Shown here: piece after piece, positions 20,733 through 47,857 of the stretch
Layout: the number at the start of each line of letters is the position of its first letter
Position numbering within the stretch: the first letter of the stretch is position 1
NCBI RefSeq assembly: GCF_030063355.1
Contig: NZ_JASISZ010000049.1
Span: forward strand, 1 to 64,000
Length of the DNA stretch: 64,000 bases
Direction of reading: 5' to 3'
DNA from: Streptomyces sp. PH10-H1
Lineage (GTDB): Bacteria > Actinomycetota > Actinomycetes > Streptomycetales > Streptomycetaceae
The notes under the pieces: generated by a model
Seen by the model: the letters and a program-made list of their open reading frames with translations, nothing else
What the model was told of the DNA's origin: nothing
The model's database searches: none
Position numbers and translations under genes: made by a program

Positions 20733-22128
<1,396 letters not shown>

Positions 22129-27653: not shown

Positions 27654-27677
27654 CGTGCGCGCCTGGCGACGTGTTTC

Positions 27678-30201: not shown

Positions 30202-30630
30202 TCAGGTCCGCGCCACACACAGGGCCGTGAGAGTGCAGCGTCCGCCGACGGCGCTGTGGTCGGGAGCCCTCGCGGTGCCGGCACCAGTCAGTGCGGCGGC
30301 GGGCGCATCAGGCCGGGTATCGGCCGGACGTGCGCCCCCGAGTGCCGGCGGGGCCGGGGCGTCGCTGCGGATCCGGTCCACCACGTGGTCGCCCGTCTCG
30401 GGGCAGCATGGTGCCCGCTGCGGAAGGGAGACCGTGACCTCGCCGCCGGATGCGGCGACGGGAGCGGCAGCTGCGGGAGGCGCGTTCAGCGGGTAGTGCT
30501 GGCCCTCGAATCCCGGGCCGTGGCTGTGCATGCAGCCAAGGAGGTGGAATGCCACCCAGATCAGGACGACGAGCACGCCGCTGTCCCGCGCGCGGCGATG
30601 CGCTGGGGAGAGCGACGCCGCACCGATCAT
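30202..30630 (-). CDS. DUF6153-like membrane-anchored protein
   Basis: A 142-residue protein. One N-terminal membrane helix ([20 protein letters not shown]) is followed by an extracytoplasmic region with Cys-Cys ([12 protein letters not shown]) and a low-complexity Ala/Pro linker, ending in LTALCVART. The end resembles that of the 25543-25992 protein, so both may be members of one family duplicated within this cargo. It stands before the PLP-enzyme gene on the same strand. Confidence 0.5.
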
Positions 30631-30877
30631 GCACCCAACGTATCTCGCTAACCACACAAAGTCACAATTGGTGGAGTTCGACCCGCCGAAGGGCTGGCCG
30701 GCGAACATTCACCTTCGTCGAGCCGAGTCCCGAGCCATCGCCGAGGTCACGTGCCTGTTCACCTCAGTGGCAGCCGCCGGTGACCGGTGTGAGCCGGCCG
30801 TCTTATCGCTGGTTTTCCGCGTCTAGGCTGGGCCGGTACCCGGCACAGCCGGGCGGGCAAGAGGAGCTGAGCGGGCG

Positions 30878-31543
30878 ATGACGGACGGCGACCAGGAGCT
30901 GGCGGACGAGCAGCGGGGGCACTGGCAGCACACCTACGCCGCTCATCCCGGCATGTATGGCGAGGAGCCTTCCAGCCCCGCGATCCATGCCGCCGCCGTG
31001 TTCCGTGCGGCCGGGGCGAGGGAAGTGCTGGAACTCGGGTCCGGGCACGGCCGTGATGCCCTGTTCTTCGCCCGGGAAGGTTTCACCGTGCAGGCGACCG
31101 ACTTCAGCCCGACCGGCCTGGAGCAGCTACGTGAGGCAGCCGGCGTGCAGGGCGTCGGCCAGCGGGTGACCACCGTCGTGCACGATGTGCGCGAGCCGCT
31201 GCCGCTGCGAGACGGCTCCGTGGACGCGGTGTTCGCGCACATGCTGCTGTGCATGGCCCTGTCGACCAAAGAGATCCACGCCCTGGTGGGCGAGGTCCGC
31301 CGCGTCCTGCGGCCAGGAGGCACCTTCGTCTACACCGTCCGGCACACCGCCGACGCCCACTTCGGCGCCGGCACCGCCCACAGCGACGACATCTATGAGC
31401 ACGGCGGCTTCGCCGTGCACTTCTTCGATCGCGCCCTGGTCGACGCACTCGCCGTCGGCTGGACACTGGAGCAGGTGCACGCCTTCGAGGAGGGAGACCT
31501 GCCGCGCCGCCTGTGGCGGATCACCCAGAGCCTGCCCCGATGA
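30878..31543 (+). CDS. Class I SAM methyltransferase (TehB/thiopurine-type)
   Basis: A 221-residue methyltransferase. Motif I is VLELGSGHGRDALFFA; the acidic position follows in VQATDFSPTGLEQL; VRRVLRPGGTFVYTV is the post-motif strand. GHGRDALFFAREGF is like small-molecule methyltransferases that act on tellurite, selenium or thiols. It faces the leftward operons on both sides and is alone in its direction here. A role in metalloid methylation would suit the surroundings but is inferred. Confidence 0.82.
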   Translation: MTDGDQELADEQRGHWQHTYAAHPGMYGEEPSSPAIHAAAVFRAAGAREVLELGSGHGRDALFFAREGFTVQATDFSPTGLEQLREAAGVQGVGQRVTTVVHDVREPLPLRDGSVDAVFAHMLLCMALSTKEIHALVGEVRRVLRPGGTFVYTVRHTADAHFGAGTAHSDDIYEHGGFAVHFFDRALVDALAVGWTLEQVHAFEEGDLPRRLWRITQSLPR

Positions 31544-31716
31544 CCGCAACCGCCCTGCTCCGGCCGTAATCGCGCCGCCGGCGCGTGAAGAGTCAGGCGC
31601 GGGCTGCGCCGCCAGCCACGGCGAGGCGCAACGGCCAAGATGACCATGTCCGTTCACGTACCGACTCTGCGCGTCCGTCGTGACTCGCGTTCAGCAAACG
31701 ACCGGGCGTCGGTTGA

Positions 31717-32124
31717 TCAGTCTTCGAGTTCGTGCCGTACGCGGCGCGACGGGTTGAAGGTGTAGAGGTCGAGGATGTCGGGCGCCTCCGCCAGTCCGGG
31801 GCCGCCGTTCTTGACCCAGGCGGCGATGTCGGCTGCGGCGCCGGGGTCGTTGACCTGGCCGAGCCAGACGGGCCGTCCGCCGGCCGCTCGGCCTTCGGTG
31901 GAGGGCTGGATGGCGATGACGTTGGCGCGCTCGCACGCGTCCAGGCAGTCGGTCCGGCGCACCATCGCCACCCCGGCCAGCATGGTGCGCAGATCGGCCA
32001 ACTGCGCCTCGTGGTCCAAGCGCGGGACCTTCACTGCGGTGCCGCAGCAGCAGCCACGGCAGACGGTGACCGTGGGCCGGGCCGCCCCCGCAGCGGGCTC
32101 TGCTTTCTTGGTGCGGCGGCTCAC
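31717..32124 (-). CDS. Thioredoxin-like [2Fe-2S] ferredoxin
   Basis: A 135-residue protein. Cys residues in VTVCRGCCCGT and DCLDACERANVIAIQPS form the arrangement seen in thioredoxin-fold (2Fe-2S) ferredoxins, where four Cys bind the cluster. Start GTG at 32124 overlaps the stop of the ATPase gene (GTGA), so the two proteins are made together. A redox or metal-delivery partner for the efflux ATPase is plausible. Confidence 0.75.
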   Translation of the reverse strand: MSRRTKKAEPAAGAARPTVTVCRGCCCGTAVKVPRLDHEAQLADLRTMLAGVAMVRRTDCLDACERANVIAIQPSTEGRAAGGRPVWLGQVNDPGAAADIAAWVKNGGPGLAEAPDILDLYTFNPSRRVRHELED

Positions 32125-34112
32125 TGCTGGCTCCGGGTGGGTGCGGCGGCCCGGTTCCAGGCGGCGTCCCGCAGCAGCCGCAGCCCGTTGAGGCCGACGA
32201 TCACGGTCGACCCCTCATGCCCCAGGACACCGAACGGGAGCGGCAGGTGCCCGGCGAGGTCCCAGATGACCAGGCCGGAGATGAACATCGCGGCAATCAC
32301 CAGGTTCTGCACCACCAGGCGCCGGGCGGCGCGGGACAGGCCCACAACGGTGGGAACGCTGGCGAGTTCGTCGCGGACGATGACCGCATCGGCCGTCTCC
32401 AGGGCGAGGTCGGACCCGGCCCGCCCCATGGCGATACCGGTATGGGCGGCGGCCAGCGCGGGCGCGTCGTTCACGCCGTCCCCGATGACCAGCACCTTGG
32501 CGCCGGCCTTCGCCTGCTCCTGGACGGCGGTGGCCTTGTCCTGGGGCAGCAGTCCGGCGCGGACGTCGCTGATGCCGACCTCTTCGGCCAGCAGAGCGGC
32601 GGCGCGCGGGTTGTCGCCGGTCAGCAGCATCGGCGCGCTGCCCGTCAGCGTGGCCAGGGCGGCGACGGTCGCGGCGGCGTCGGGCCGCAGCCGGTCGGCA
32701 ATGCCCAGGACCCCCACAGGTACGCCGTCACGCTGGACGAGGACGGCCGTGCGGCCCGTTTCCTCCAGGCTCTCGGCGGTCGTCGCGGCCTCGGTGAAAG
32801 TCTCGTCGGTGCTGCTGAGGAGTCGGGCGGGGGCGCCGACCGCGATGGTGTGGCCCTCGATCGTGGCGGTGACTCCAGTGCCGGGGGCGGAGGTGAAGTC
32901 CTTCACGTCCGGGATGGCCAGGTGGCGGGTGCGGGCGGCGTCGACGACGGCGCGGGCCAGCGGGTGCTCGCTGGGATGCTCCGCGCCGGCCGCGAGCACC
33001 AGGAGGGTGTCCTCATCCAGGCCGGAGCCGGTCAGCGGACGGACGTCGGTAATTCGGGGGGTGCCCTCGGTCAGGGTGCCGGTCTTGTCCAGGGCGACCG
33101 CGTCGACCTGCCCGAGGCGCTCCATGACGACGGCGGACTTGACGAGGACGCCGTGGCGTCCGGCGTTAGCGATCGCGGAAAGCAGCGGCGGCATGGTGGC
33201 CAGCACCACAGCGCACGGCGAAGCGACGATCATGAAGGTCATCGCCCGCAGCAGCGAGGCGGTGAGGTCGGCGCCGAAGCCCATCGGCACCAAGAAGACC
33301 GCCAACGTCGCGAAGACCATGCCGAGGCTGTAGCGCTGCTCGACCTTCTCGATGAACAGCTGGGTCGACGCCTTGGTCTCGGAGGCTTCCTCGACCATGG
33401 CGACGATGCGGGCGATCACGGAGTCGGAGGCGTCCCGCTCGACTTTCACCCGCAGGGCGCCGGTGCCGTTCAGGGTTCCGGCGAAGACTTCATCCCCGGT
33501 CCCCTTCGCCACTGGCAGCGGCTCACCGGTGATGGTGGCCTGGTCGACGTCGCTGGCCCCCTCCAGCACTCGGCCGTCGGCTCCGACCCGCTCGCCGGGG
33601 CGGATGAGAACGGTGTCGCCGACGGCGAGGTCTGCGGTGGCGACCGTCTCCTCGCTCCCGTCGTCAGCCAGCCGGGTGGCCGTGCTGGGGGCGAGGTCGA
33701 GCAGACCGCGGACCGCGTCCTGGGTGCGGGCGGTGGCCAGCGCCTCCAAGGCGCCGGAGGTCGCGAAGATGACGATCAGCAGCGCACCGTCCATCACCTG
33801 CCCCATCGACGCCGCACCGATCGCTGCCACGATCATCAGCAGGTCCACATCCAACGTCGCCTCGCGCAGGGCCTGGAGCCCTGCCCAGGCCGGCTCCCAG
33901 CCACCGGTGACATAGGCGAGCGCGTACAGCGGGCCCCACGCCCAGGCCGGGGCGCCCGTCAGCTGCAGCGGCAGCGCGACCAGGAACAGCACCAGCGCGG
34001 CCCCGGCCCAACGGGCCTCGGCCAGAGCGAACACCCGCGTACGACGGCGCGGCACCGCCGCCGGAGCAGCGGAAATCGCCCGTTCGGGACGCTGGAGGAG
34101 AGCGGAAGGCAT
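32121..34112 (-). CDS. P1B-4-type heavy-metal ATPase (Co/Ni/Fe efflux)
   Basis: A 663-residue P-type ATPase. TITGEP (near 195), the SPC metal site in helix 4 (298-300), phosphorylation motif DKTGTLT (342), SEHPLARA and GDGVNDAPAL are all present. The last helices carry LGHEGSTVIVGLNGLRLL. SPC plus HEGST without soluble metal-binding domains defines the P1B-4 group (CtpD/CtpJ/CoaT), which export Co, Ni, Fe or Zn. ATG at 34112 follows GGAGGAGAGCGGAAGG. It is divergent from an NmtR-like gene. Confidence 0.92.
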   Translation of the reverse strand: MPSALLQRPERAISAAPAAVPRRRTRVFALAEARWAGAALVLFLVALPLQLTGAPAWAWGPLYALAYVTGGWEPAWAGLQALREATLDVDLLMIVAAIGAASMGQVMDGALLIVIFATSGALEALATARTQDAVRGLLDLAPSTATRLADDGSEETVATADLAVGDTVLIRPGERVGADGRVLEGASDVDQATITGEPLPVAKGTGDEVFAGTLNGTGALRVKVERDASDSVIARIVAMVEEASETKASTQLFIEKVEQRYSLGMVFATLAVFLVPMGFGADLTASLLRAMTFMIVASPCAVVLATMPPLLSAIANAGRHGVLVKSAVVMERLGQVDAVALDKTGTLTEGTPRITDVRPLTGSGLDEDTLLVLAAGAEHPSEHPLARAVVDAARTRHLAIPDVKDFTSAPGTGVTATIEGHTIAVGAPARLLSSTDETFTEAATTAESLEETGRTAVLVQRDGVPVGVLGIADRLRPDAAATVAALATLTGSAPMLLTGDNPRAAALLAEEVGISDVRAGLLPQDKATAVQEQAKAGAKVLVIGDGVNDAPALAAAHTGIAMGRAGSDLALETADAVIVRDELASVPTVVGLSRAARRLVVQNLVIAAMFISGLVIWDLAGHLPLPFGVLGHEGSTVIVGLNGLRLLRDAAWNRAAAPTRSQQ

Positions 34113-34159
34113 GACAAAACAACCCTTCACGGTCAGAGGACGGCAACACATCCACCGTA

Positions 34160-34190
34160 CAGGAATATATGAACAGGTCTTCAGGTGTGC
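34160..34190. promoter_or_regulatory. Candidate NmtR operator
   Basis: The 95-bp divergent gap contains ATATATGAACAGGTC followed by TTCAGGTGTG, with an inner dyad TGAA-CAGGTC-TTCA at 34170-34183. Sites of the form ATATGA-N-TCATAT are used by NmtR/SmtB proteins; the right half is imperfect here. Confidence 0.5.
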
Positions 34191-34207
34191 CAGGTAGGAT
34201 GAGCGCT

Positions 34208-34594
34208 ATGGGTCACGGAATGGACGACAAGGGCACCGCCACCACCCGCGAGCGCCTCGACGCTGTGGGGACTACTGACGTCGCCGCGACCCTCCAGGCC
34301 CTGGCCACCCCGTCCCGGCTGCGGATTCTCGCCCGCCTCCAAGAAGGCCCCTGTGCGGTCGGTGACCTCGCCGAAGCCGTCGACATGGAAGCCTCCGCCT
34401 GCTCCCACCAGTTGCGCCTGCTGCGCAACCTCGGCCTGGTCACCGGCGAACGCCACGGCCGCTCGATCATCTACGCCCTCTACGACAACCACGTCGCCGA
34501 ACTCCTCGACCAGGCGCTGTACCACGTGGAGCACCTGCGGCTCGGAGTCCGCGACAGTCTGGCCGAGTTGCCCCAGGCCATCGTCGCCGAGTAG
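34208..34594 (+). CDS. nmtR: NmtR-like Ni/Co-sensing ArsR/SmtB repressor
   Basis: A 128-residue regulator that opens MGHGMDDKG, like mycobacterial NmtR, whose N-terminal His residues help bind nickel. LQALATPSRLRILARLQEGP and CSHQLRLLRNLGLVTG form the winged helix. The last helix has YDNHVAELLDQALYHVEHL, the alpha-5 pattern D-x-H-x10-H-x2-H of Ni/Co/Zn sensors. It faces the P1B-4 ATPase, the usual NmtR target. ATG at 34208 is preferred over one 39 bases upstream. Confidence 0.88.
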   Translation: MGHGMDDKGTATTRERLDAVGTTDVAATLQALATPSRLRILARLQEGPCAVGDLAEAVDMEASACSHQLRLLRNLGLVTGERHGRSIIYALYDNHVAELLDQALYHVEHLRLGVRDSLAELPQAIVAE

Positions 34595-34989: not shown

Positions 34990-37554
34990 TCACCCCTCCT
35001 GGAATGGCTTGCGTGCCTCGTCCAGCAGGGCGATCAGGCGCTGTGCCTCCCTGATGAGGGGTTGGCCGCGTGGCGTCATCCTGACGGGACGCTTGCGGCG
35101 ATTGAACACGGCGAACCCTGCGGCGTCCTCCACCAGGCGAAGGTGCGCGTTGAACGTCGTTCTGGGGACGCTGAGGGTGAGAGCTGCCGAGCGGCGCGTT
35201 GGGTATCCCGGCACCAGCACCGCGCTTCGCAGGGCGGTCAGACTGTTCTGGCGGATGCTGATGCGGTGCATGGCCGCTGAGAGCGTCACCGGCAGGCCAG
35301 AGAAAGGATTGGGGTAGGTGCGCAGGGCGACGTGCCCTGGAGGGTGCCGAGGGATCCCCCACGCGTCGAGGAGGTCGGCGACGCTCTTGCCACCGGTGTT
35401 GAGCTCCCGTCCGATCTCCGCGGCCGTGCGTCCCTTGATGTGATATTCGGTCCTTAACCAGGTGCGGGAGACGAATCGTGCGAGCTCACCGGCAGCGCGG
35501 CGCGGCCGCAGCGGGACCCCGGCCTCTCTCAAGGAATAGCGGACGGTACCGGGGCTGCATCCGGCGAGCTCAGCAATGTCCTTCTGTTGCAGACCTTGGT
35601 CTTCGTAGAGGTGGCGCAGACGACTGGGTGCAAGGTCACCTTTCCGAGGGGCCGGGTGCCCCGGCCCCCGCGGGCGGGGCGGTTTGGGAGCGCCGACCCC
35701 ACGACTCTCCAGTAGCAGACGCAGTTGGTGCACAGTCAGGCCGAGTTCTGTGGCCACGTCCTTGGCGGCCGGTCCCGGCGCCAGGAGCGCGGCCAGCCGG
35801 TCCGTGGTGATGCCGTGCGGGGCGACGGGCAACACATTGCCGTCGAGCCAGTCGTCGGGCGGCTCCCAGGACACCGGTTCGGCGATGCCGTGTGCGGCGA
35901 GGACGGCACCGGCCTGATCGGTGAGGAAAGCACGGAGATCGGGATGCATCCGGTAGGCGAAGCGGTGAGCCCACGCGGGCGCGTGGTTCCCTTGGTAGGG
36001 CTCGGCCCCCAGAAGCAGGCGGCGCAGCTGCCAGCGGGCCCGCTCCTGATGCACCGGTGTGAATTGGCGGCTGCCGAAGCTGCGGCAGATCTCGCGGTGC
36101 CTGGTCTCGTCGAGGGCCAGCTCGGTCTCGTCGGCGAACAGAGTCCGTCGGCGGGCGTAGTCGATCGGAACGGTATGCGTGTCGACGACGCGTGCGAAGT
36201 GCGCCAGGGTGCCGGCGATGTGGTCGGCGTCCACGAAGGCGAGGAGCGCCTCTTGTTGGCTGCGGAAGTGGTTGTTGCCCATGAGGCGAGCGGCCTGCCG
36301 GTGGCCGATCGGGCCTCCAGGGATCAGCATCAGGTTCACGCACGCGCGACGGATGCCGCCGATCCGCGGCTGGTGGGGGGCCTTGGCCGGCAGTAGCCGC
36401 AGTGTCCACGACGGCCAGAGCATCCCGGGAAGTTTCGCTGCCCGCAGGCGTATCTCTTCTTCGCTGAGCGTGGGAGCCGCGGCATCGGAGGTCGCCGTTG
36501 CATAGCGCAGCCGGGCCTTGAGGGTGAGCTGTCCGTCTGAGGCTTTGAGGATCCGCGAGATCACCCGTGTTCCGGCCGGCTTCCAGTTCCACAGCTCCGA
36601 GGTGGGGTGGTCCCGGGGAACGTTGATAGGCCGCCCTGAGCCGCGCTGTAGCCAGGTGAACAGCTCGTCGCTGCTGGGATGTGGAAGGTCCGTGGCGATG
36701 ACGGCCAGAGCAGTGCCGACGGCAATGTTGTGCGCGTCGTGCACTTCCTGCTTGGCAGCGACCTGGGGCGCGGCACCACCGCATTCGTCGAGAACCTTGC
36801 GGACGACCGACGGCGCTGTCTCGAGTCGTGTGTGGATGCCGCGCAGGGCCCGGCGGCCGAGGAACGACAGTTCGCCGCCGCGCTGTCGTGCCGAGGAGCC
36901 GTGGTGGTCGGCGAGAACGGAGGCGTCGACCGCGTGCTGAGCCGTGAGGACCAGCCCGTTTTTGGGCAGCCGGACCGCCGGCGCCTGAGCGAGGGGAAAG
37001 TCGCAGCGGACGTGTGGTCCCCGTTGGATGATCCAGGACCGGCAGGTTTCTGGCCGGGGCACGATGCGGTGCCGCCCGAGGCTGGCCACGGGCGGGGTGT
37101 TCCCGCACTGGGGGCAGTGGTCGAGCAGCAGCAGTTCGTGCCGGGTGCAGGCGAAAGCCCAGCCGAGGCGCCACCGCACCTGCCACTGGGCCTGGTCCTC
37201 CTCCAAGCAGGCCGGGCAGTACCGGGACGTGTTGCCGTAGTGCCGCCAAGCGGGCGGACACCGCAGGCGCCGCGACGGGTCGATGCGCACGAGGGAGCCG
37301 TCGTACGGCTCCAGGGTCATAGCGGTCAGCTGCTCGGCCCCGATCCCGGTGCGGCGCTGGAGCACCTCGCGTTCTTCCTCGGTCAGGCGGCGGACCATCG
37401 TGCGCGCGGACGAGTGGGGCAGGCCGAGATAGTCGACGAAGTCCAAGGTGTTGATCTTGAGCCGGTAGGCGTACCGCTCCAGCCAGCTATCCAGAGCCTC
37501 CCCGGGGGCCGGCGCCACCGCGATGGGGATGCGCTCATCGGTCCAGCCCGTCAT
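34990..37554 (-). CDS. tniQ: TniQ/TnsD-type target-selection protein
   Basis: An 854-residue protein. Residues 10-45 are the TniQ opening (PGEALDSWLERYAYRLKI). The zinc finger follows: YCPACLEED (Cys113, Cys116), ACTRHELLLLDHCPQC (Cys136, His139, Cys147, Cys150). The C-terminal 300 residues contain several helix-turn-helix segments, for example KDIAELAGCSPGTVRYSLRE and RTAAEIGRELNTGGKSVADL. TnsD uses such a region to read a fixed chromosomal site, and this length exceeds that of minimal TniQ. ATG at 37554 overlaps the tnsC stop (ATGA). Confidence 0.9.
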   Translation of the reverse strand: MTGWTDERIPIAVAPAPGEALDSWLERYAYRLKINTLDFVDYLGLPHSSARTMVRRLTEEEREVLQRRTGIGAEQLTAMTLEPYDGSLVRIDPSRRLRCPPAWRHYGNTSRYCPACLEEDQAQWQVRWRLGWAFACTRHELLLLDHCPQCGNTPPVASLGRHRIVPRPETCRSWIIQRGPHVRCDFPLAQAPAVRLPKNGLVLTAQHAVDASVLADHHGSSARQRGGELSFLGRRALRGIHTRLETAPSVVRKVLDECGGAAPQVAAKQEVHDAHNIAVGTALAVIATDLPHPSSDELFTWLQRGSGRPINVPRDHPTSELWNWKPAGTRVISRILKASDGQLTLKARLRYATATSDAAAPTLSEEEIRLRAAKLPGMLWPSWTLRLLPAKAPHQPRIGGIRRACVNLMLIPGGPIGHRQAARLMGNNHFRSQQEALLAFVDADHIAGTLAHFARVVDTHTVPIDYARRRTLFADETELALDETRHREICRSFGSRQFTPVHQERARWQLRRLLLGAEPYQGNHAPAWAHRFAYRMHPDLRAFLTDQAGAVLAAHGIAEPVSWEPPDDWLDGNVLPVAPHGITTDRLAALLAPGPAAKDVATELGLTVHQLRLLLESRGVGAPKPPRPRGPGHPAPRKGDLAPSRLRHLYEDQGLQQKDIAELAGCSPGTVRYSLREAGVPLRPRRAAGELARFVSRTWLRTEYHIKGRTAAEIGRELNTGGKSVADLLDAWGIPRHPPGHVALRTYPNPFSGLPVTLSAAMHRISIRQNSLTALRSAVLVPGYPTRRSAALTLSVPRTTFNAHLRLVEDAAGFAVFNRRKRPVRMTPRGQPLIREAQRLIALLDEARKPFQEG

Positions 37555-38696
37555 GCCGAGTTCCTCTGCCGCCGTGGATCCAGCGCGGGCCGAGTGGTCA
37601 TGAGGCCGGCCTTGATACCGGCCTCCAGTTCCTTGCGGGCCGCCTCGGCCGCGGCGTCGTTCTTCACCTGGTTCATCAGCTCCTCGTCCAGACGCTCGTG
37701 GCCGTCGCGGATCGCGCGCAGGCAGCCACGGTTGATGAGCGACATCAGGGACGCGAAGTGCCCGGTGGAGCGGGCGAAGAGGTAATCCGAGAGGTCCTCG
37801 GCGAGCATGCCGGGGTACTTCTCGGCCAGGACGAGTTTCTGCTCGATCGTCTTGAGCAGCTGGTGCCACTGCACGCGGCCCTGGTCGTCATCAACCTGGA
37901 AAGGCGGCAGCGTCAGCGCCGTGGTGCGGCGCCCGAACTGGGCGAGCGGGCTCTCCCTCGGCGAGAAGCCCTCATGGAGGATCCCGCGCTCCTGGACGCC
38001 GACGCCCACGTAGATCAGGGTGACGGGGAAGACGTTGGAGAGGTACTTGAGCTGGTTGGCCATGCGGACCGAGTTCGACTTCGAGCCGGCCAGGAAGTGG
38101 ATGTCGTCGATGATCATGGCGACGGTCTTCATCGACAAGACCGCGTCCACGGCCCGCTCGGCCAGCGTGTCCGCGTCCCCCTTAACGGGCAGCCCGTAGA
38201 ACCGACAGATCGCCGCATTCAGGCCGCGGATCTGCGTGTTGCCGCTCAGCGCGATGTAGATGACCGGCACCCGGCGGGCACCGGCCGGGGTCGTGTCCCC
38301 ACGGAGGTTGACCTGCCGTTGGAACAGGTCGCAGCCGTACGCGCGCACCGCCGTGCTCTTGCCGAGCCCCGGGTGGGCGTCCACCAAGGCGGCCGGCTTC
38401 GTCTTGTTGCCGTCCTGCCGGTTCGACTCCACGATCTCGCGCAAGTCAGCGTGGAGCGCGAGCAGTTGCGGGGTGTCGATGGGACCGATGTTGGCGTGCC
38501 AGACCTCCCGGTTGTCGTTGTGCACCAAGAGCGCCCGCGGCGAAAGGTCGGCGAGCTGGGCCCGGCTCAGTTGCTCGGGCCGGATCCGGTCGGGTCCGTA
38601 GACCTCCTGCAACCAGCCAGGCAACCGGGTCGGACTGTACTGGCGGTCGTCGCCTTCGAACGGCTCGGCGTCCGCGGCACCGCCCGCCGTGCTCAA
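37551..38696 (-). CDS. tnsC: TnsC-type AAA+ transposition regulator
   Basis: A 381-residue AAA+ ATPase. Walker A is DAHPGLGKSTAV (about 106-117), Walker B is VAMIIDDIHFLAG (192-204), and YVGVGVQERGI lies at the sensor-1 strand. TnsC polymerises on DNA and connects the target-site protein with TnsAB. The start is a TTG within the tnsB stop (TTGA), and the stop overlaps tniQ, so all four proteins come from one message. Confidence 0.92.
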   Translation of the reverse strand: MSTAGGAADAEPFEGDDRQYSPTRLPGWLQEVYGPDRIRPEQLSRAQLADLSPRALLVHNDNREVWHANIGPIDTPQLLALHADLREIVESNRQDGNKTKPAALVDAHPGLGKSTAVRAYGCDLFQRQVNLRGDTTPAGARRVPVIYIALSGNTQIRGLNAAICRFYGLPVKGDADTLAERAVDAVLSMKTVAMIIDDIHFLAGSKSNSVRMANQLKYLSNVFPVTLIYVGVGVQERGILHEGFSPRESPLAQFGRRTTALTLPPFQVDDDQGRVQWHQLLKTIEQKLVLAEKYPGMLAEDLSDYLFARSTGHFASLMSLINRGCLRAIRDGHERLDEELMNQVKNDAAAEAARKELEAGIKAGLMTTRPALDPRRQRNSA

Positions 38697-40873
38697 CGGC
38701 TCTCCCAGACGTCGGCGTAGTAGTCGTCCCCTTCGATCGCGGCGCCGTTCGCCTCGCCCGGGAAGACGGCTTCCAGCTCATCGTCCTCGTCATCGTCCCC
38801 GCCCGGCACCTCGTCCACGCCATCGATGATCCGCAGGTCCGGGCCCTCCGAATCATTCTGATCGGCCCCGGGCCCGCCGGCGGCTGCCACCTTCCGCAGG
38901 GACGGGAGGGAGGCGACGAGGTCGGTGCCGGTGGGCGCCTCGTCGTCGCCGACCATGCGCAGTCGCTCCTGGGACAGCCGCACCGCCATGCGGCGCTCAG
39001 TGCGATCCCGCGTCAGCCCAGCACCCCAGCGCTCCAGCAGCTCGACCAGTGTGCGCTTAGTGTCAGGGAACCGGTCCTTCTGCCTGGCGAGCCGACGGGC
39101 ATACCCCAGCGCCTCACGGCTCACCGGCATACCCAGAGCAGCGGCATGCTCCCAGTTCAGGACGTGCCAGTCCCGCGTCTGCGGGTCCTGGAAGTACGCC
39201 TTGGTGATGTCGCCGGAGTCGATGGCGATCGGCCACTTCCCCGCGTCCACGCCCCGGTAGGGGCTGGGCTGGTTGCGGTGGCCGTCGAGCCCGTCCCCGT
39301 TGTAGCGCAGGCCGTCGATGTCCACGCCGTAGTGGTGGATCGGGACGCGGAACTCTTCGAGGAATTCGAGGGCGAGGTGCGGCCGGAGAGGAATCCGCAG
39401 CGGGCCGGCGCGTGTGACGCCGTGCTCGAACATCTCCAGCGGGCTGAGCTTCAGCCCCGGCACCTCTGGGATGCACAGCCCGCGGTGGCGGCGCCGGTGA
39501 TACACGTTGGTGATCCAATCCCGGATGACCGCTTCGAGCTCGTCGAGGAAGAAGAATGCATCGTCCTCGACCTTCTCGCCGCGGCTGTGCACGTCGGAGC
39601 CCTTGTAGCCGGGCAGCGCGGCCAACAGGCCCTGGTTCAGGGTCCGGAACCAGCGCTCGACTGGCTTGTCGGTCGGGGTCTTGGGACGGGCGGGCTGCAG
39701 GGAGATCCGCAGCTTCGCGCAGACGCTCTTGATGTGGTTCGACAGGTAGACCTTGCCGTGGTCGAAGATGATCGTTTCGGTGGCGACCGTCGGCAGCAGC
39801 GGCTGACCATCCCGGTCCACGAGCTTCTCCGCGTCGACCACCACGGTGGACGGCACCCCGGCATACGGCAGTGGCTCCCCGCTGCCGGTGCGGGCTTCGC
39901 GCGGACGGACCGTCTCGTACAGCACCCCGGCGACATCCACGGACTTCGTCGAAACCGGAGTCAGCCGCAGGCCCACGATGCACCTGCTGTAGAGGTCCAT
40001 GGCGACCGTGAGCTCGCACCGTACCCACCGGCAGGTCAGCGGCTCCATCGCGAAGACGTCCAGACTGTTGGTGTCCAGGACGACATACTCGCCGGGCCGG
40101 GTGGCGCGCAGGCGGCCGTACGTGCCCTGCGGGGCGTCCGCGATCGACCGTTTGCCCTTGGTGCTGCCCTCGAACGCGTTGGTCCCTTTGGCCAGTTGCC
40201 GCAGCAGTTCGTAGCCCATCGTGCTCGCCGGTAGCGGCACCGTGCCCTTCCCATGCTCCTTGACCAGCCGCTCCTCGATCTCGGTGAGGACCAGCCCGCG
40301 CACCGGACGGCTCGCCTTGACGTGCGCCTTCAAGACTTCCTCGGCCATCTCCACCCAGCGGGGGTCTGCCCGCTCCACCACGCTGCGTACGGGGCGGTCG
40401 ATCACAAGCCCGGCCGGGCCGGCCTTCTTGAACGCCGCGGTCCACCGGCGGATCGTGCTGACCCCAACGCCGAGCTCGGCGGCCTTGACGGCATAGCGGT
40501 GCAGCAGCGGCTTGCCCGGCGTGAAGTCCCCGCGCGGCTCTCCTTCCAGGGCCAACGAAGCGTCGCCGAGCCGGTATCCGGTCAGGATCTCTTGGAGGTG
40601 CTGGACCTTCAGGGTCAGCTCGGCGTCTTCCTCGTCGGCCAAGCCGCTCAGCAGGGCCGCCGATGCCGTCGCCTCTTCCGGGATCGGCTCCAGGATCTCG
40701 GTACTGGGATGGGCGAGCAGGACGGAGATGTCGACCTGCCGCAGCTTCGGCGGCCCGGCCACCGCGGACTGGCGCAGGAGAATGCGCCGTCCTTCGATCT
40801 CCGCGACGGTGAACTGCTCACCGTCGAAGGCGATCGGCAGCCCCGTCCGCAGCATCGTCGTCCACTGGCTCAT
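38693..40873 (-). CDS. tnsB: TnsB-type DDE transposase
   Basis: A 726-residue integrase-fold transposase. Residues 105-250 are the HTH and linker region (GVGVSTIRRWTAAFKKAG). The catalytic residues read as Asp267 in YVVLDTNSLD, Asp371 in IIFDHGKVYLSN and Glu406 in TDKPVERWFRTL, a DD(35)E pattern. A Mu-type beta-barrel follows at 490-560. The acidic C-terminal tail (DDDEDDELEAVFPGEANGA) probably contacts TnsC. TnsB binds the repeated end sites and joins 3' ends to the target. ATG at 40873 overlaps the tnsA stop. Confidence 0.94.
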   Translation of the reverse strand: MSQWTTMLRTGLPIAFDGEQFTVAEIEGRRILLRQSAVAGPPKLRQVDISVLLAHPSTEILEPIPEEATASAALLSGLADEEDAELTLKVQHLQEILTGYRLGDASLALEGEPRGDFTPGKPLLHRYAVKAAELGVGVSTIRRWTAAFKKAGPAGLVIDRPVRSVVERADPRWVEMAEEVLKAHVKASRPVRGLVLTEIEERLVKEHGKGTVPLPASTMGYELLRQLAKGTNAFEGSTKGKRSIADAPQGTYGRLRATRPGEYVVLDTNSLDVFAMEPLTCRWVRCELTVAMDLYSRCIVGLRLTPVSTKSVDVAGVLYETVRPREARTGSGEPLPYAGVPSTVVVDAEKLVDRDGQPLLPTVATETIIFDHGKVYLSNHIKSVCAKLRISLQPARPKTPTDKPVERWFRTLNQGLLAALPGYKGSDVHSRGEKVEDDAFFFLDELEAVIRDWITNVYHRRRHRGLCIPEVPGLKLSPLEMFEHGVTRAGPLRIPLRPHLALEFLEEFRVPIHHYGVDIDGLRYNGDGLDGHRNQPSPYRGVDAGKWPIAIDSGDITKAYFQDPQTRDWHVLNWEHAAALGMPVSREALGYARRLARQKDRFPDTKRTLVELLERWGAGLTRDRTERRMAVRLSQERLRMVGDDEAPTGTDLVASLPSLRKVAAAGGPGADQNDSEGPDLRIIDGVDEVPGGDDDEDDELEAVFPGEANGAAIEGDDYYADVWESR

Positions 40874-41625
40874 CCACGCCTCCGCAGAATGCATTCCCCT
40901 GACAGCGGTCGGGCCGCGAGATCCGTGGCCAGCCTCCCCGCCCACAACAGCGCCATCAGCGCCGGGCGGGCCTCTTCGGGCTCGCGGTCTCCGGCCAGCC
41001 GTCGCTCGGCGAGCCCCAACTCCTCACCGTCGACGACCTCCTGCCAGGCCCGTTCGACTTCGTCGACGGGCACGACACCGGGGTGGCGATAGGCGGCCAG
41101 GAACCGGACGTTCTCCAGCAGGGTGGGCTCGGCGCCCGACCAGATCTCGTACTCCCAGCCATGGCGCTCGATGAGATGCCTCGGCCAGGCCAGCGCCTGC
41201 GCGACCTTGGGGTCCTTGAGGCGCGAGGTTGGCTTGACGTTGACGACGCGCACCGTCCCCGAACTCATCAGCAGAAGGAAGTCCGGAACGTGGCTGCGGA
41301 CCTTGCCGTCGATCCGCGCCACCATGCGCAAGGGCTGTGCGTAGATGCCGCGCACCGACGGGTCGAAGTCGGCGAGCAGCAGGCGGGCCAACTCCAGTCG
41401 GCTCTCGTAGACGACCTGGCCGCCCGTCGTCGCCGAGGCGTAGTCGCCCGAGTAGTGCGCCATCCCGTGGACCGAACGAACCCGGCGCCACGGATCCGAC
41501 TCGTCGAGGTCCCTCAACCGCAGCAGGTTGAAGGGGACTTCGCGAGTCGACCCGTCGACGTACCGAATCGACGCCGTCGGGGCGGTGCGCTTACTCCGGC
41601 CCCTTCTTGGGCCCTGCGTGGCCAT
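40870..41625 (-). CDS. tnsA: TnsA-type endonuclease
   Basis: A 251-residue restriction-type nuclease. YESRLELARLLLADFD holds Glu (74 or 78), SHVPDFLLLM holds Asp115 and RVVNVKPTSRLK holds Lys131, in the same order and nearly the same positions as Glu63/Asp114/Lys132 of Tn7 TnsA. TnsA cuts the 5' strands, so the element should move by cut-and-paste. It is the first gene of the operon, starting about 160 bp from the right terminus. A truncated copy lies at 43189-43538. Confidence 0.88.
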   Translation of the reverse strand: MATQGPRRGRSKRTAPTASIRYVDGSTREVPFNLLRLRDLDESDPWRRVRSVHGMAHYSGDYASATTGGQVVYESRLELARLLLADFDPSVRGIYAQPLRMVARIDGKVRSHVPDFLLLMSSGTVRVVNVKPTSRLKDPKVAQALAWPRHLIERHGWEYEIWSGAEPTLLENVRFLAAYRHPGVVPVDEVERAWQEVVDGEELGLAERRLAGDREPEEARPALMALLWAGRLATDLAARPLSGECILRRRG

Positions 41626-41783
41626 ACTGGAAGGGTGCGAAGAAGGCGCACCATCCAAACCGAAAGATCGGTAAAGCCGACAATTGACAACTACTGGACG
41701 TCACCGCTGCCCATGATCACGCGGAAATGCTCGAATGGTGCTCATGATCACGCGGAAGTGCTCGCGAAACTGCGGAACCTACA
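41276..41783. repeat. 508-bp direct repeat, copy 1 (tnsA 5' part plus right end)
   Basis: This segment is repeated at 43189-43697 in the same orientation with few differences. It holds the first 117 codons of tnsA and the whole right end. Confidence 0.85.
41701..41783 (+). repeat. Right end of element X
   Basis: CATGATCACGCGGAA occurs at 41712 and again at 41743, 31 bases apart; GCTCGCGAAACTGCGG and the terminal CCTACA follow. Over the last 72 bases it differs from the end at 43697 at 10 positions by hand count. The repeats are the expected TnsB-binding sites. Confidence 0.85.
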
Positions 41784-41788
41784 CCGGC
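41784..41788. other. 5-bp target duplication CCGGC, right copy
   Basis: CCGGC follows the terminal ACA of element X and precedes TGTAGGG of mini-element Z. It is identical to the five bases at 15885-15889. Confidence 0.75.
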
Positions 41789-41880
41789 TGTAGGGACCGC
41801 ATCTTCGTGAGCGCTGGCTCCTGCGGCGATGGCGTTTTCCGCACGGGGTGAGCACTGCTCGTAGGGGCCGATCATGAGCA
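41789..41880 (+). repeat. Left end of mini-element Z
   Basis: TGTAGGGACCGCATC, GAGCGCTGGCTCCTGCGG and GATCATGAGCA at its inner edge. It aligns without gaps over 92 bases with the ends at 14026 and 15890. From 41881 to 42343 I see only untranslated leader sequence and no gene. Confidence 0.8.
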
Positions 41881-42343
41881 GAACGTCCCAGCGGGCTGCC
41901 TTCGGTGGTAGCCCTGCGTGACTCCTGCCGTCTTCGCCCTGCCTGGTGGGGCGCGGAAGCGGCATGGGTGGTGCGTTGTGGATGAGCTCTCCATTGGTGC
42001 CGTTTGGGACTGATGAGGATCTGTGATTTTCCCCAGGGGTGCTCTTCCCTCCGTTTTGTTGGATCTTGAAGGGTGTGGGGAGGGTGGGGAGCGAAGAGCG
42101 GGATCTGGTAGGTGCTCCAGAGGCTGTTAGTGGTGTCGCTTAGGATCGCTGGCGATCGGGGGCGGGCTTCGGTGGGTGGGGCGTTATGAGTTTTGCCTGC
42201 GTCGCTACTTCAAGCCATCGCCGAACTCACCAGCCTGCTCGCACCCGGCGACATACGCCGAGGCGGCGGCACGTGACCGAGCCGGCCGACCCGTCGATCC
42301 TGATCATCCCGACGACCCGAAACCAGCGAGCCCTGGAGCTGAC

Positions 42344-42898
42344 ATGGCTGACATGATCGTGCCCGACCCCGTGACCCGCGACATTCTCGCGATCTTCGAA
42401 CGCGCGCGATCCCGGCTGTTCGAGCGCCTGGAGGACCTGACCGACGCCGAGTACCACTGGGAGCCGGTCAGCGACTGCATCAGCATCCGCCCCGGCGACG
42501 ATGGCGTCTTCCGCGTCGCCACGCTATTTCCGGAATCGAGTCCGGAGGCGCCGGACCCCCTCACGACGATCGCCTGGCGCATCTGGCACATCGGCAGCCT
42601 CTGTCTGCGCGGCTATGTGATCCACTTCTTCGAGGACGTCCCCGAGTTCGGCGACCGCCACGAGTGGCCGGGCACCGCGAAAGAGGGCGTCCAGGCGCTC
42701 GCCGAGGACTGGGAGCACTTCATCTCCCGTATCGCAGCCCTCGGCGACAAGCGCCTGTTGGCGCCGATAGGCATGGGCCCCGGCGGTTGGGCCGATGAGA
42801 CCTATCTGAAGCTCGCGCTGCACGCTCTGGTCGAGGTCGCGCATCACGGCGGCGAGGTCGGCCTGCTGCGCGACCTGTACCTGCGCGAAGGCGTCTGA
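42344..42898 (+). CDS. DinB-like four-helix protein
   Basis: A 184-residue protein of the DinB/DUF664-type fold. IFERARSRLFERLEDLTDAE YHWEP opens the first helix, TIAWRIWHIGSLCLRGYV supplies a helix-2 His, and ALHALVEVAHHGGEVGLLRD ends the domain with the closely spaced His residues that bind the metal. Members include thiol-dependent transferases and many orphan proteins. ATG at 42344 has GGAG upstream; an in-frame extension to 42176 is less likely. It is the sole intact gene of mini-element Z. Confidence 0.8.
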   Translation: MADMIVPDPVTRDILAIFERARSRLFERLEDLTDAEYHWEPVSDCISIRPGDDGVFRVATLFPESSPEAPDPLTTIAWRIWHIGSLCLRGYVIHFFEDVPEFGDRHEWPGTAKEGVQALAEDWEHFISRIAALGDKRLLAPIGMGPGGWADETYLKLALHALVEVAHHGGEVGLLRDLYLREGV

Positions 42899-43188
42899 TT
42901 TCGGCGGTGGGCGACCTTGTCCGGCGGCCGTGTGCCGCCAGACAACGGCCGTGGTCGGCAGCTATCTCCTTCCTCCCGCTCTACTCATCGGCCGCGTCTG
43001 GGTCACGCAGTGGCCTCATGCCGCGTGAGCAATCAGGCCCCCGAACAGGCCGAACAGTGTGCACGCAGGCTCTCCCGGACAAGATCACGTCATCCCGACA
43101 CACCGAGCAAGATCACACGATGGTGGGGAGATCCACAGAGCAGGTTTGCCCCCACCCCCGAGTACCGGGTGGCCGCTTTCAGGGAGCG

Positions 43189-43538
43189 AGGAAGTCCGGA
43201 ACGTGGCTGCGGACCTTGCCGTCGATCCGCGCCACCATGCGCAAGGGCTGGGCGTAGATGCCGCACACCGGCGGGTCGAAGTCAGCGAGCAGCAGGCGGG
43301 CCAACTCAAGTCGGCTCTCGTAGACGACCTGGCCGCCCGTCGTCGCCGAGGCGTAGTCGCCCGAGTAGTGCGCCATGCCGTGTACCGAACGGACTCGGCG
43401 CCACGGGTCCGACTCGTCGAAGTCCCTCAAGCGCAGCAGGTTGAAGGGGACTTCGCGAGTCGACCCGTCGGTGTAACGAATCGACGCCGTAGGGGTGTTG
43501 TGCTTGCTCCGGCTCTTTCTCGGGCGCTGTTCGGCCAT
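43189..43538 (-). pseudogene. Truncated tnsA
   Basis: The first 113 or so codons match the complete tnsA at 41276-41625 almost throughout (YTDGSTREVPFNLLRLRDFD, GGQVVYESRLELARLLLADF). The match ends just after the catalytic Asp in RSHVPDF, and a stop follows at 43179 in unrelated sequence. The Lys of the active site is lost, so the product should be inactive. It lies where tnsA lies in a full element, about 160 bp from the right terminus. The stretch 42899-43188 before it has no recognisable gene. Confidence 0.85.
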
Positions 43539-43614
43539 ACTGGAACGGTGCGAAGTGGACGCACCGCCCAAACCGGAAGATCGTTAACAGTCGACAACTG
43601 ACAACTACTGAACG

Positions 43615-43697
43615 TTACCGCTGTCCATGATCACGCGGAAATGTCCAAACGGTGCCCATGATCACGCGGAAATGCTCACGGAATCGCGGAACCTACA
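43615..43697 (+). repeat. Right end of mini-element Z
   Basis: CATGATCACGCGGAA at 43626 and 43657, then GCTCACGGAATCGCGG and terminal CCTACA at 43697. The match with the end at 41783 stops within two bases of this point, which fixes the terminus. Confidence 0.82.
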
Positions 43698-44161
43698 CCT
43701 CGGCCGCCCCTGAACCAGACGCCGGCGAGGCAACCGCGCAGGCACGGAAAGCCGCACGGTCCCGGGCCTCGCCCACTCCGGCAGAAGGGACGCAAGGGGC
43801 AGCACGGGTGCTCGTGCAGCAGCATCCGGGGGCCGGCTAGGCGCCAGTGCGCCGGGCGAGCCCGACCCGCGGTTGCTCCAGGACCAGCCCCACCGCCGCT
43901 CCTCGCTTCGTCTCAGCCTGGCTGACGAGACCGACCACACCCTCAGCGCTGCCCGCTGACGCGAAACCGGATGGGCCTATCGAGCGCCTCAGCCGCCTCT
44001 GACCAGCCAGCCTTCTCGCGCCGCGCGCGGATCCCATCCGCGCACGGCGCGAGAGGGCTGCGCGGGAACGGTTACCTTGGAATCAGAGGTTTTTCCCCGC
44101 CGACAGGCGGCGCAAGGGGCTCCGGCCGTCGCCACTCCGCACGATGGGAGGAGGTGGTCTC
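43698..44161. other. Flank right of the array, no complete gene
   Basis: From 43698 a frame without a start runs to TAG at 43838-43840 and encodes an Ala-rich tail (PEPDAGEATAQARKAARSRA, then RVLVQQHPGAG). It may be the 3' end of a gene cut by the array. From 43841 to the gene at 44162 I see only short inverted motifs and the GGAGGAGG ribosome site of that gene. Confidence 0.4.
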
Positions 44162-45538: not shown

Positions 45539-47857
45539 TCAGGTACGCCGTCCGCCCGCCGCGAGCAGGTCCTGCGTGCCGTCGGGAACGCGGCCCGGCC
45601 ACTGGAAGACGAGCCTCGCGAAGGGCTTATCGAGCACGTCACCGGGCGGCAGCTGCTCGTCAGGGGTTCCAGCCGGGTGGACCGTCATCGGCGGGTAGCC
45701 GCTCTCACGCACCTTCCGGTCCCAGGTACGCACGCAGTCGGCGAACCGCTCCGCCAGCTCTCCGGCGGCCGGCCCGTAGGCGTGAATGAAAAACTCGGTG
45801 AGGCGGTCGGCTGGATCCGGCGCGTCCTTGATCATGCGATAAGCCAGGTAGGCGAGGGAGCCGTCCGCCAGCATCGCGGCCGCGTCCTGCTGCGCTACGA
45901 GGGTAGATCCTTCCGGGGCGGTCAGACGGCAGAATCCGGGCAGGGTGGTCGCGGCGTAGACCTGCAAGGTCTCGAAGTTGAAGGTGCCTCGGACGACGAG
46001 GCCGGCGGTGAGCTCGTGCTGTGGCCCGCGCAATGCTTCCTCGAGACCGGTGGTGTCGCCGGGAACACCGTCTTCCCACCGCACGGTGACTTCGCCGTCG
46101 GCCAGTGCGACGGCGGGGGCGGTGCGGGCTGCTGCGCCGCGGTCCCGTACGAACCCGCAGTACGTCCAGTGTTCGGTGCGCAGTACGTCGCCGTCCCGGA
46201 CGAGGGTGAGGGAGCGGGTGTAACCGCCCATCTCTAGCGGCACGACCAGCCGCGCCCCTTCGGCGAGTTGCTCCCGCCAGGCTGGAGCAATGTCGAACGC
46301 GTTGTGCGTGATCATCACGCCGTCGAACCCCCCGGCCGGCACGTGGCCGGGCGCGCCGCGGCTGCCGTCGCCCAGGACAGCGGTCACCTGGCCGCTGCCT
46401 GCCTCTGCGCACAGTCGCTGGGTTCGGTGCACGACGTACGGATCGACGTCCACGGTCACCACGCGACCGCGCGGTCCGAGGACGTGGGCGAGGAGCTCGG
46501 CGTTGTAACCGCCCGACCCGACTTCGAGGACGTTCATTCCCGGCTGCAGCCGGAGTTGCTCGATCATGTCGGCCTGCAGCCAGGCCGCGGACACCGAACT
46601 GATCGCGGTTCCGGCCTCGTCGCGCCGGGTGATGACAGCCCGGTCGCCGCCGTCGTACGCGGTCGCGAGGTTAACCTCCGGGACGAACCGGTGGCGGGGC
46701 ACGGTCTGCAGCGCATTCCGGACCGGCTGGGATGGGGCCCAGCCGCCAGCGACGACCGTCTCCGTCATCTGCTGGCGATACCGGCCGGCTTCGGCCGGCT
46801 CACCGGGCACCGGCGGGACCACGGTGGCGCACAGGTAGGAGTGGATAGATGGCAGCCCCGGCAGCACCCCGGGCCACACCGCGGTGAGCGCCTGGGCGCT
46901 GGGCGCGAAGATCTTCCCGAGGGTGTCCAGGGCGTTCAGGTCGTGCCACTCCCAGCGCACGAAGCGGTGCGGTTCCGGCAGGCCAAGTTCGCCCTCCCAA
47001 CCGGTGATGCGGACCACCGCGGTGATGCGGCGCACATCCAGCCAGTCGTCGTGGAGCACTGTGACGACATGCGCGTCCTCCGTGCGCGCCGTCAGCCCGC
47101 TCTCTTCCGACAGCTCCCGCACGGCAGCGGTTTCGGCGGCTTCGCCTGCCTCGATCCGGCCGCCCGGCAGCTCCCACATTCCCCGAGTCGAGCGGCCCAG
47201 TAGGACCCGTCCGAACGGATCGGTGACGACCATTGCGGCGCCGAATACGGCCTGCGGATCGAGCCGTGACTTCTCCTCCGCGCTGAACGACCCGCCGCGG
47301 CCGCGCAGAACCAGGACCGCCAGGCCCTCCGCGTCAAAGCGCTCGGTCTCGTTGAACCCGTCGGTAAGCGCGGCGAGTTCATCCTCGTCGAGCGCGATGT
47401 GGCGCCTCTTCTCGGGAGTGTGTTCCGCGAGCGGCGTGATGACGATGAGTTTCCCGTGCTTGCCCAGCCGCGCCGCCAGGCGGCGCAGGATATAGGCGCG
47501 AGAGCGGAGGAAGGCGATGGACAGTCGGATGACGATCAGCGCGTAGCCGTCGTGGAGATCAGCAAGGTCGTCGTGCTCGATGTCCAGGCACAGCCAGCGC
47601 AGCCCCTCCACTCCGGGATGCTCGGCGCGGGCACGGTCGAGGGCGCCTTCGGCGAAGTCGGCAGCGTCGACCATGTACCCGAGCGAAGCGAGGTAGGCGG
47701 CCATCTCGCCGGTGCCGCAGCATGCATCGAGTGCGCGGCTGCCGCTCTCGGGCGCCGGTGCGTGTTCGAGGAGCAGGCCCTTCTCCTCGTCTCCCAGTTG
47801 CCAGAAGCCTCGCCCGTCGTTGTAGTGCTCGGTCCAGTCGGCCCGGGTGTATCCCAC
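45539..47857 (-). CDS. Methyltransferase-Nudix-FxLD-type methyltransferase fusion
   Basis: A 772-residue multidomain enzyme. Residues 35-190 are a class I methyltransferase (LDACCGTGEMAAYLASLG at 43). Residues 205-325 are a Nudix hydrolase with the full box GRIEAGEAAETAAVRELSEE (233-252). Residues 365-600 are a protein-isoaspartate-type methyltransferase (TVPRHRFVPEVNLATAYDGG; VLEVGSGGYNAELLAHVLG), close to the group linked with FxLD lanthipeptides; its C-terminal domain follows to the end. GTG at 47857 has GAGGAG upstream. Fusion of all three is unusual and points to tailoring and proofreading in one natural-product pathway. Confidence 0.82.
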   Translation of the reverse strand: MGYTRADWTEHYNDGRGFWQLGDEEKGLLLEHAPAPESGSRALDACCGTGEMAAYLASLGYMVDAADFAEGALDRARAEHPGVEGLRWLCLDIEHDDLADLHDGYALIVIRLSIAFLRSRAYILRRLAARLGKHGKLIVITPLAEHTPEKRRHIALDEDELAALTDGFNETERFDAEGLAVLVLRGRGGSFSAEEKSRLDPQAVFGAAMVVTDPFGRVLLGRSTRGMWELPGGRIEAGEAAETAAVRELSEESGLTARTEDAHVVTVLHDDWLDVRRITAVVRITGWEGELGLPEPHRFVRWEWHDLNALDTLGKIFAPSAQALTAVWPGVLPGLPSIHSYLCATVVPPVPGEPAEAGRYRQQMTETVVAGGWAPSQPVRNALQTVPRHRFVPEVNLATAYDGGDRAVITRRDEAGTAISSVSAAWLQADMIEQLRLQPGMNVLEVGSGGYNAELLAHVLGPRGRVVTVDVDPYVVHRTQRLCAEAGSGQVTAVLGDGSRGAPGHVPAGGFDGVMITHNAFDIAPAWREQLAEGARLVVPLEMGGYTRSLTLVRDGDVLRTEHWTYCGFVRDRGAAARTAPAVALADGEVTVRWEDGVPGDTTGLEEALRGPQHELTAGLVVRGTFNFETLQVYAATTLPGFCRLTAPEGSTLVAQQDAAAMLADGSLAYLAYRMIKDAPDPADRLTEFFIHAYGPAAGELAERFADCVRTWDRKVRESGYPPMTVHPAGTPDEQLPPGDVLDKPFARLVFQWPGRVPDGTQDLLAAGGRRT

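Follow-up and report, generated by a model that had tools for sequence, protein, structure and literature searches.

A Tn7-like tnsA-tnsB-tnsC-tniQ element with defined ends in a head-to-tail array of Streptomyces sp. PH10-H1

Contig NZ_JASISZ010000049.1 of Streptomyces sp. PH10-H1 carries a Tn7-like tnsA-tnsB-tnsC-tniQ operon, analysed here within a stretch of 64,000 nucleotides (positions 1 to 64,000, hereafter the window), which is nearly the whole of this 65,063-base contig (C181) of the 8.54-Mb genome. The operon belongs to a full element, E2, that lies between two small elements, E1 and E3. We consider it likely, with a probability of about 0.8, that the three form a head-to-tail stack (E1-CCGGC-E2-CCGGC-E3) of Tn7-like cut-and-paste elements, the targets of which follow an exchanged tniQ or tnsC-tniQ segment.

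The tns operon and the array around it

The operon consists of four genes:

34990–37554, reverse strand: tniQ, 854 aa, with its ATG at 37554 and a PF06527 match (E 5.9e-26)
37551–38696, reverse strand: tnsC, AAA+ ATPase with TniB and AAA_22 matches
38693–40873, reverse strand: tnsB, DDE transposase with D291/D395/E430 (numbering of the 750-aa open reading frame, ORF, that starts at 40945)
40870–41658, reverse strand: tnsA endonuclease, with matches to PF08722 and NF033179 (TnsA_like_Actin, E 4.9e-69) and residues E89/D126/K142

The successive genes overlap by ATGA, TTGA and ATGA if the internal ATG at 40873 is taken as the tnsB start; the longest tnsB ORF begins at 40945. The E89/D126/K142 residues of TnsA align with Tn7 TnsA, and the protein scores 232 bits against NF033179 (cut-off 110); a comparison with Protein Data Bank (PDB) sequences gave no match of note. 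In TnsB, D395 and E430 are 35 residues apart. Its nearest solved sequences are a CRISPR-associated TnsB (E 4.7e-12), which we take to be of the type-V subtype, followed by those of Tn6677 (5.8e-11) and Tn7 (2.9e-4). TnsC bears Walker A and Walker B motifs and matches the PDB sequences of Tn6677 TnsC (3.5e-8) and Tn7 TnsC (0.0047). The TniQ domain is N-terminal, with zinc-type CxxC motifs, and weak helix–turn–helix matches are seen besides; at the C terminus the matches are to LysR-type helix–turn–helix domains, weak but repeated. An earlier note on this DNA had described a four-gene Tn7-like operon with these catalytic residues, the 4-base overlaps and an 854-aa TniQ, and all of these are present. 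Its overall description, a Tn7-like operon with defined ends in an actinomycete, is borne out by the genes, the residues and the end profiles.

The array was delimited by position weight matrices (PWMs) of the element ends and comprises the following features; E1 was defined by independent PWMs, models and gene calls.

14026–15884, forward strand: E1, small element, 1859 bp
14026–14125: left end of E1
14216–14872, reverse strand: methyltransferase-like gene of E1
14836–15225, reverse strand: E1 gene for a 129-aa protein without a Pfam match
15259–15696, forward strand: HxlR regulator gene of E1
15793–15884: right end of E1, with the terminus TATAGG instead of TGTAGG
15885–15889: CCGGC spacer joining E1 (right end) to E2 (left end)
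15890–41783, forward strand: E2, full element, 25,894 bp, with the tns operon and metal cargo
22346–22407, forward strand: truncated left-end remnant inside E2 (35 bits, E 7e-10, with a model that includes the window ends)
41692–41783, reverse strand: right end of E2; a TGCTCATGATCACGCGGAA-like repeat occurs in it twice, at a distance of 31 bp
41784–41788: CCGGC spacer joining E2 (right end) to E3 (left end)
41789–43697, forward strand: E3, small element, 1909 bp
41789–41888: left end of E3
42176–42898, forward strand: DinB_2-domain gene of E3
43188–43571, reverse strand: tnsA fragment of E3, the first ~128 codons, 88% identical
43606–43697: right end of E3

A scan for the repeat core first indicated extra ends near 14026 and 43697. 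The PWMs were built from 10 right ends and 8 left ends, all taken from other genomes and none from the window. With them, the three right ends (15884, 41783, 43697) score 152.8, 138.2 and 64.2, the next score in the window being -52.2, and 20 length-matched Markov sequences reach at most -50.1. The three left ends (14026, 15890, 41789) score 128.1, 125.2 and 68.3, followed by -9.6 (the remnant at 22346, weaker yet still above the random maximum of -32.9) and by -29.6 and -32.4, both borderline against that maximum. Models built with the window ends included give the same three left and three right ends; the left-end model covered the window alone. With three left and three right ends found by independent profiles, the array is head to tail and E2 is its middle member. 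The ends are of the TGT...ACA type with several TnsB-type repeats, the exceptions being the right terminus of E1 (TAT) and some relatives (TCT). E1 and E3 are without tnsB, tnsC and tniQ and carry other genes. The truncated left end at 22346 is preceded by a possible weak right-end remnant, and E2 may itself be a fusion of two units.

The junctions read CCTATA-CCGGC-TGTAGG (15879–15895) and CCTACA-CCGGC-TGTAGG (41778–41794). Both thus have the order right end-CCGGC-left end, so that CCGGC separates neighbouring elements. A search with the junction pattern, allowing up to three mismatches, returned three matches, namely the two exact ones and the reverse strand of the 41778 junction, a number reached in 0 of 100 shuffles. 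By hand calculation at a GC content of 0.694, the same 5-mer would occur at both junctions by chance with a probability of ~0.002.

These junctions also bear on the interpretation put forward in the earlier note, in which a 25.9-kb element stands alone in ordinary target DNA, with CCGGC as its duplication. The TGTAGG at 15890, the CCTACA at 41783 and the CCGGC beside both are as described there, and the PWMs recognise both termini as real ends. What lies outside each CCGGC, however, is the end of another element rather than target DNA, as recognised by the independent profiles, and the array has its outer ends, at 14026 and 43697, which makes a solitary insertion very improbable. Since the ends of E1 and E3 flank E2, the empty site proposed for it would join two other element ends. 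Re-use of one 5-bp sequence by every insertion would place CCGGC on both sides of E2, as observed.

The array could also have arrived as a whole, as one composite that used its outermost ends, the left one of E1 and the right one of E3. Its outer ends are intact and it does not sit within a recognisable target gene, both of which would suit such an origin. The outer 5-mers, TGCAC on the left and CCTCG on the right, differ from each other, which speaks against it, and a transposase-gene stretch that ends ~30 bp outside E1 suggests other rearrangements; on balance we find this origin unlikely. The stretch in question (13400–13993) is 98% identical to a transposase-gene stretch on a plasmid of Streptomyces sp. 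NBC_00868, and the match stops ~30 bp before the left end of E1.

Relatives were collected from a scan of named bacterial genomes (eight loci) and from genus, family, second-genus and plasmid surveys, which partly overlap. TnsA was found in 7/35 genomes of the genus (E ≤ 1e-50) and in 13/394 of the family (1e-60), the PH10-H1 genome included in both, and in 10/199 genomes of a second genus (1e-70). The right-end model found five right ends in the PH10-H1 genome, and any at all in 7/35 genus genomes, PH10-H1 again included. A solitary relative of 16.3 kb (L046, genome G028) has a perfect 5-bp duplication, CGAGG, at both sides. Arrays are present in four other genomes: that of H39-S7 (L052) holds two elements, that of ISL-98 (G039, L069/L070) three right ends, one of them degraded, and two left ends, and that of G471 (L109) three complete units plus the right end of one more; G469 (L113) likewise holds an array.

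E1 and E3 might alternatively be dead debris, that is, deletion remnants of full elements that are immobile even in trans. E3 retains a cut tnsA fragment, the right terminus of E1 is TAT rather than TGT, and the outer flanks are unmatched, all of which would fit such decay. Both small elements, however, have both ends well kept, and units without a tnsB, tnsC or tniQ match recur in the arrays of H39-S7, ISL-98, G471 and G469. The small element of ISL-98 has the same shell as E3 (92% identity over 383 bp of the tnsA fragment and 84% over 220 bp of the left end) around a different middle. We regard decay as a serious contender, at somewhat less than even odds. Because E3 and the ISL-98 element share the shell and not the middle, the small elements probably moved in trans.

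Insertion targets and the GT2 site

A right-terminus candidate was located in 26 of 31 loci; 21 of the 31 have a target label (that of L027 being taken from L070, L027 counted as part of an array) and ten have none. Among the eight later loci, L110 shares its contig with L026 and was left out. Wherever a target was labelled, its gene runs towards the right end of the element. The targets are genes for a GT2 glycosyltransferase, an ABC-transporter ATPase, a PucR-type regulator, glyceraldehyde-3-phosphate dehydrogenase, DnaB, RsmB and a PCMT-like methyltransferase, in addition to unnamed genes; one example per gene type was checked by Pfam. The fuller GT2 protein at L023 matches a Pfam family; the C-terminal GT2 pieces at L109 and L090 are without a Pfam match, their GT2 kinship being seen by BLAST. 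In the methyltransferase gene the insertion cuts the domain itself. The target at L025 has no Pfam match, and the label BTAD, considered for L025/L026, was dropped for want of family support, leaving an unnamed gene. No glmS was seen in the flanks read.

Insertion into GT2 genes is precise: in 7/7 genes measured (those of H39-S7, S. globisporus, ISL-98, G353, G471, G469 and contig C122 of PH10-H1) the right end begins 37–38 nt past the same glycine codon. The gene on C122 (L055:2280) is interrupted by a right end of the same type, and no tnsA was apparent in the ~300 bases read beyond it, although tnsA was not searched for there. The five other sampled members of the window's TniQ group (L109, L023, L024, L027 and L090, in five genomes) all insert in GT2 genes, and a GT2 gene is the presumed target of the window copy as well.

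The window contains an empty version of such a site:

5548–5980, reverse strand: 3' part of a GT2 gene, uninterrupted; empty version, at 5613, of the site of the H39-S7 array

Positions 5613–5979 are 93.7% identical to the GT2 side of the array of Streptomyces sp. H39-S7 and positions 5548–5614 are 89.6% identical to its far side. This gene has lost its 5' half at ~5980, and the window array sits outside it. The GT2 gene of G040 is likewise uninterrupted. Beside the window copy, at 6107–10460, three successive genes encode tyrosine recombinases of 392 and 865 aa and a DUF6262 protein, an arrangement that we take to resemble the Tn554 trio.

Past the right end of E3, translations of 43698–44143 showed, by eye, no known gene. 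An in-frame look-alike beside E3 was dropped as a target, its spacing being wrong.

Exchange of the target selector

Judged from the sequences compared here, relatives with near-identical cutting enzymes insert into different genes: L090 (GT2) and L094 (ABC) share 91% identity in TnsB and 45% in TniQ. For the window element and L023 the values are 92% and 60%. The order is reversed in other pairs: L109, which inserts in a GT2 gene and is the closest TniQ relative of the window element, is 66% identical to it in TnsB, 93% in TnsC and 80% in TniQ, and the GT2 inserters L090 and L027 share 61% in TnsB and 89% in TniQ. DNA identity shifts ~3.1 kb from the right end, at the tnsB/tnsC border, in the pairs window-L109, window-L090 and L090-L027, and ~4.2 kb from it, at the tnsC/tniQ border, in window-L023, window-L090, L090-L094 and L090-L109.

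The trees agree with these profiles. In the TniQ tree the window element, L109, L023, L024, L027 and L090 form one clade (100/100). In the TnsB tree L090 and L109 are found among the ABC-gene inserters, and the window element, L023, L024 and L027 stand beside L046, a PucR-gene inserter. The approximately unbiased (AU) test rejected the TniQ clade on the TnsB data (p-AU 1.8e-36) and the TnsB groupings on the TniQ data (p-AU 4e-4 and 2.5e-44), with large likelihood differences (428, 767 and 541 units); the p-values are optimistic because the groups were named after the identities were seen. A TniQ that merely evolves fast, without any exchange, would be consistent with the lower conservation of TniQ than of TnsB in most comparisons. 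The reverse order in L090-L027 and window-L109, and the rejection by the AU tests of each gene's clades on the other, leave this explanation with very little probability. Trees and DNA profiles together thus show exchange of tnsC-tniQ or of tniQ between elements.

The target mostly goes with the exchanged part. This was assessed on 19 loci (23 same-target and 148 different-target pairs), after removal of L093 (a duplicate of L092, its ABC label never shown in frame), and of L049 and L088 (both lacking a TniQ in the stretch); L024 and L027, their TniQs joined from two frames, and the partial L030 were kept. The nearest neighbour has the same target in 16/16 cases by TnsC, 15/16 by TniQ and 12/16 by TnsB. 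Permutation of the labels, for TniQ identity given TnsB identity, gave p 5e-5, an optimistic value because the rows are related.

The following course of events would account for these data. TnsA and TnsB would excise an element, presumably still able to transpose in the case of E2, at its TGT...ACA ends bearing several TnsB sites, and TnsC would bridge them to TniQ. The latter, as a TnsD-like selector, would recognise a conserved gene, next to which the element would insert right end first, at a fixed distance and with duplication of 5 bp. Further insertions at that site would push older elements off and leave the same 5 bp between them, giving a head-to-tail stack; such re-use fits CCGGC at both window junctions and GGCGG, found both at the element junction and in the right flank of the H39-S7 array. 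E1 and E3, if still mobile, would need the machinery in trans. The selector part (tniQ or tnsC and tniQ) would swap between elements, and the target would go with it rather than with TnsA/TnsB. As for the avoidance of target immunity, divergent ends are one possibility. A broader generalization is offered tentatively, at somewhat less than even odds: the Tn7-like elements of Streptomycetaceae would retarget by swapping a tnsC-tniQ cassette, and the GT2 site would stack transposase-less shells with interchangeable middles, moved in trans by a resident full element, as an integron-like gene-collecting island without an integrase.

Several observations weigh against the proposed stack and its selector-dependent targeting. 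The outer 5-mers of the window array are unlike CCGGC as well as each other, and six GT2 proteins searched past 43697 gave no match, so that the array's own target was not found. Arrays are not always tidy: the outer left 5-mer of H39-S7 is one base off the other two, the G471 junctions are ACGCG, ACCGC and the 7-bp ACACGCG, the ISL-98 spacer is 6 bp, and the junction spacers of G469 are also less regular. The ABC-gene inserter L094 is an exception by TniQ, and the parsimony count of target changes is little lower on the TniQ tree (five) than on that of TnsB (six). The AlphaFold model of TniQ is poor (mean predicted local distance difference test score, pLDDT, 46.9) and lends no support.

How Tn7-type selectors fix their target is an active question and one useful for genome engineering. 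The loci described here supply natural matched pairs, with near-same TnsA/TnsB and different targets or with the same target and different TnsA/TnsB, which make the role of TniQ, with TnsC as its partner, testable by swapping. In Streptomyces, a genus valued for its antibiotic pathways, the 3' end of the GT2 gene offers a candidate docking site, and the arrays bear on the evasion of target immunity and the gathering of cargo. Follow-up is merited by the array, by the GT2 site and by the selector exchange seen in nature.

Relation to known systems and other genes of the window

In a TnsB tree of 39 rows, the family of the window element falls in a clade of actinobacterial sequences (100/99) that includes neither Tn7 nor TniA nor the other references; as Tn7 is a long branch, the tree shows separation and not order. 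In the comparison suggested by the earlier note, Tn7 and the TniA of a Tn5053-like element thus lie outside the actinobacterial clade, and no verified Tn6022 reference is on the tree. The TniA in question is that of Raoultella, which stands beside mer genes and which we take to be Tn5053-like from this layout. The Tn5053/Tn402-type (TniA) elements resemble the window element in having a related transposase, an ATPase and TniQ, but the window element has TnsA in addition and no resolvase match among the E2 ORFs scanned.

The PH10-H1 genome holds eight further stop-free TnsB relatives of 28–52% identity (contigs C44, C160, C230, C63, C55, C200, C184 and C68; L010-L018), as well as one with two stops and one weak match, and is therefore rich in Tn7-like elements; seven of them are on the tree, where they belong to other actinobacterial sub-clades. 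On contig C160 (L011, 6296–8891), three separate TniQ-like matches, on both strands, precede another tnsABC set.

The window element resembles Tn7 of E. coli, which inserts at glmS, in its tnsA-tnsB-tnsC-selector order and in the position of tnsA adjoining the right end. The right end of its relatives lies at the 3' end of the target gene, as in the Tn7 layout seen in L136; a 5-bp duplication is likewise part of standard Tn7 logic, as outlined in PMC11406308. The window element differs in its distant TnsB (E 2.9e-4), which groups apart from Tn7, and in having no TnsE match among the ORFs scanned. Moreover, its relatives insert within the 3' coding end of the GT2 gene, whereas Tn7 inserts behind its gene.

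Elements of this kind are not new, the family being already known from surveys. In the passages of Benler et al. (2021; PMC8649781) that concern it, a second TnsB clade is described as dominated by Actinobacteria and without an experimentally characterised member, and adjacent insertion is said to give multiple left and right ends. The window element has the host group and gene set of that clade, and its membership is suggested by the host and by the TnsB tree presented here; those passages do not name a GT2 site. Tn7706 of Rhodococcus erythropolis NI86/21, a Tn7-like element of 19,377 bp with tnsA, tnsB, tniB and tniQ (PMC12915292), is also actinobacterial and, by its description, has the same kinds of genes; the passage on it is silent on arrays of small elements. 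NF033179 (TnsA_like_Actin), which covers the window TnsA, supplies a family name only, without a mechanism. Selectors have been described as modular, with TniQ/TnsD and its C-terminal region setting the target (Faure et al., 2023; PMC10293859). The present case differs from what is described there in that the exchange is among closely related elements, its break points are mapped and the natural targets have changed; in the main text of that paper, neither 'actinobact' nor 'glycosyltransferase' occurs (0 counts each). In Streptomycetaceae, tnsB and tnsC genes have been noted beside type I-E CRISPR loci, which is another setting (PMC12231136, in the part concerned). Judging by titles and the beginnings of abstracts, no report of GT2 targeting or of selector exchange in the actinobacterial clade was among the open-literature matches listed.

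The cargo of E2 includes genes for metal and sulfur handling:

23208–34594: E2 cargo, including metal genes
23208–24470: ArsP-type permease gene
26103–27311: cation efflux protein gene
32121–34151: heavy-metal P-type ATPase gene
34169–34594: ArsR regulator gene

The scan of E2 ORFs, which left aside some that were short or doubtful (two at 19578–20788 among them), gave no Cas match, and no CRISPR-like repeats were found. Elsewhere in the window, positions 45539–47857 encode a 772-aa protein uniting methyltransferase, NUDIX and PCMT domains; a 711-aa ABC transporter and two APH-type kinases are encoded nearby, and the region may be a biosynthetic cluster. At 54024–56977, a glutamine-synthetase-like gene and an amino-acid permease gene overlap by ~260 bases as called from their longest ORFs, so one of the two starts is probably wrong.

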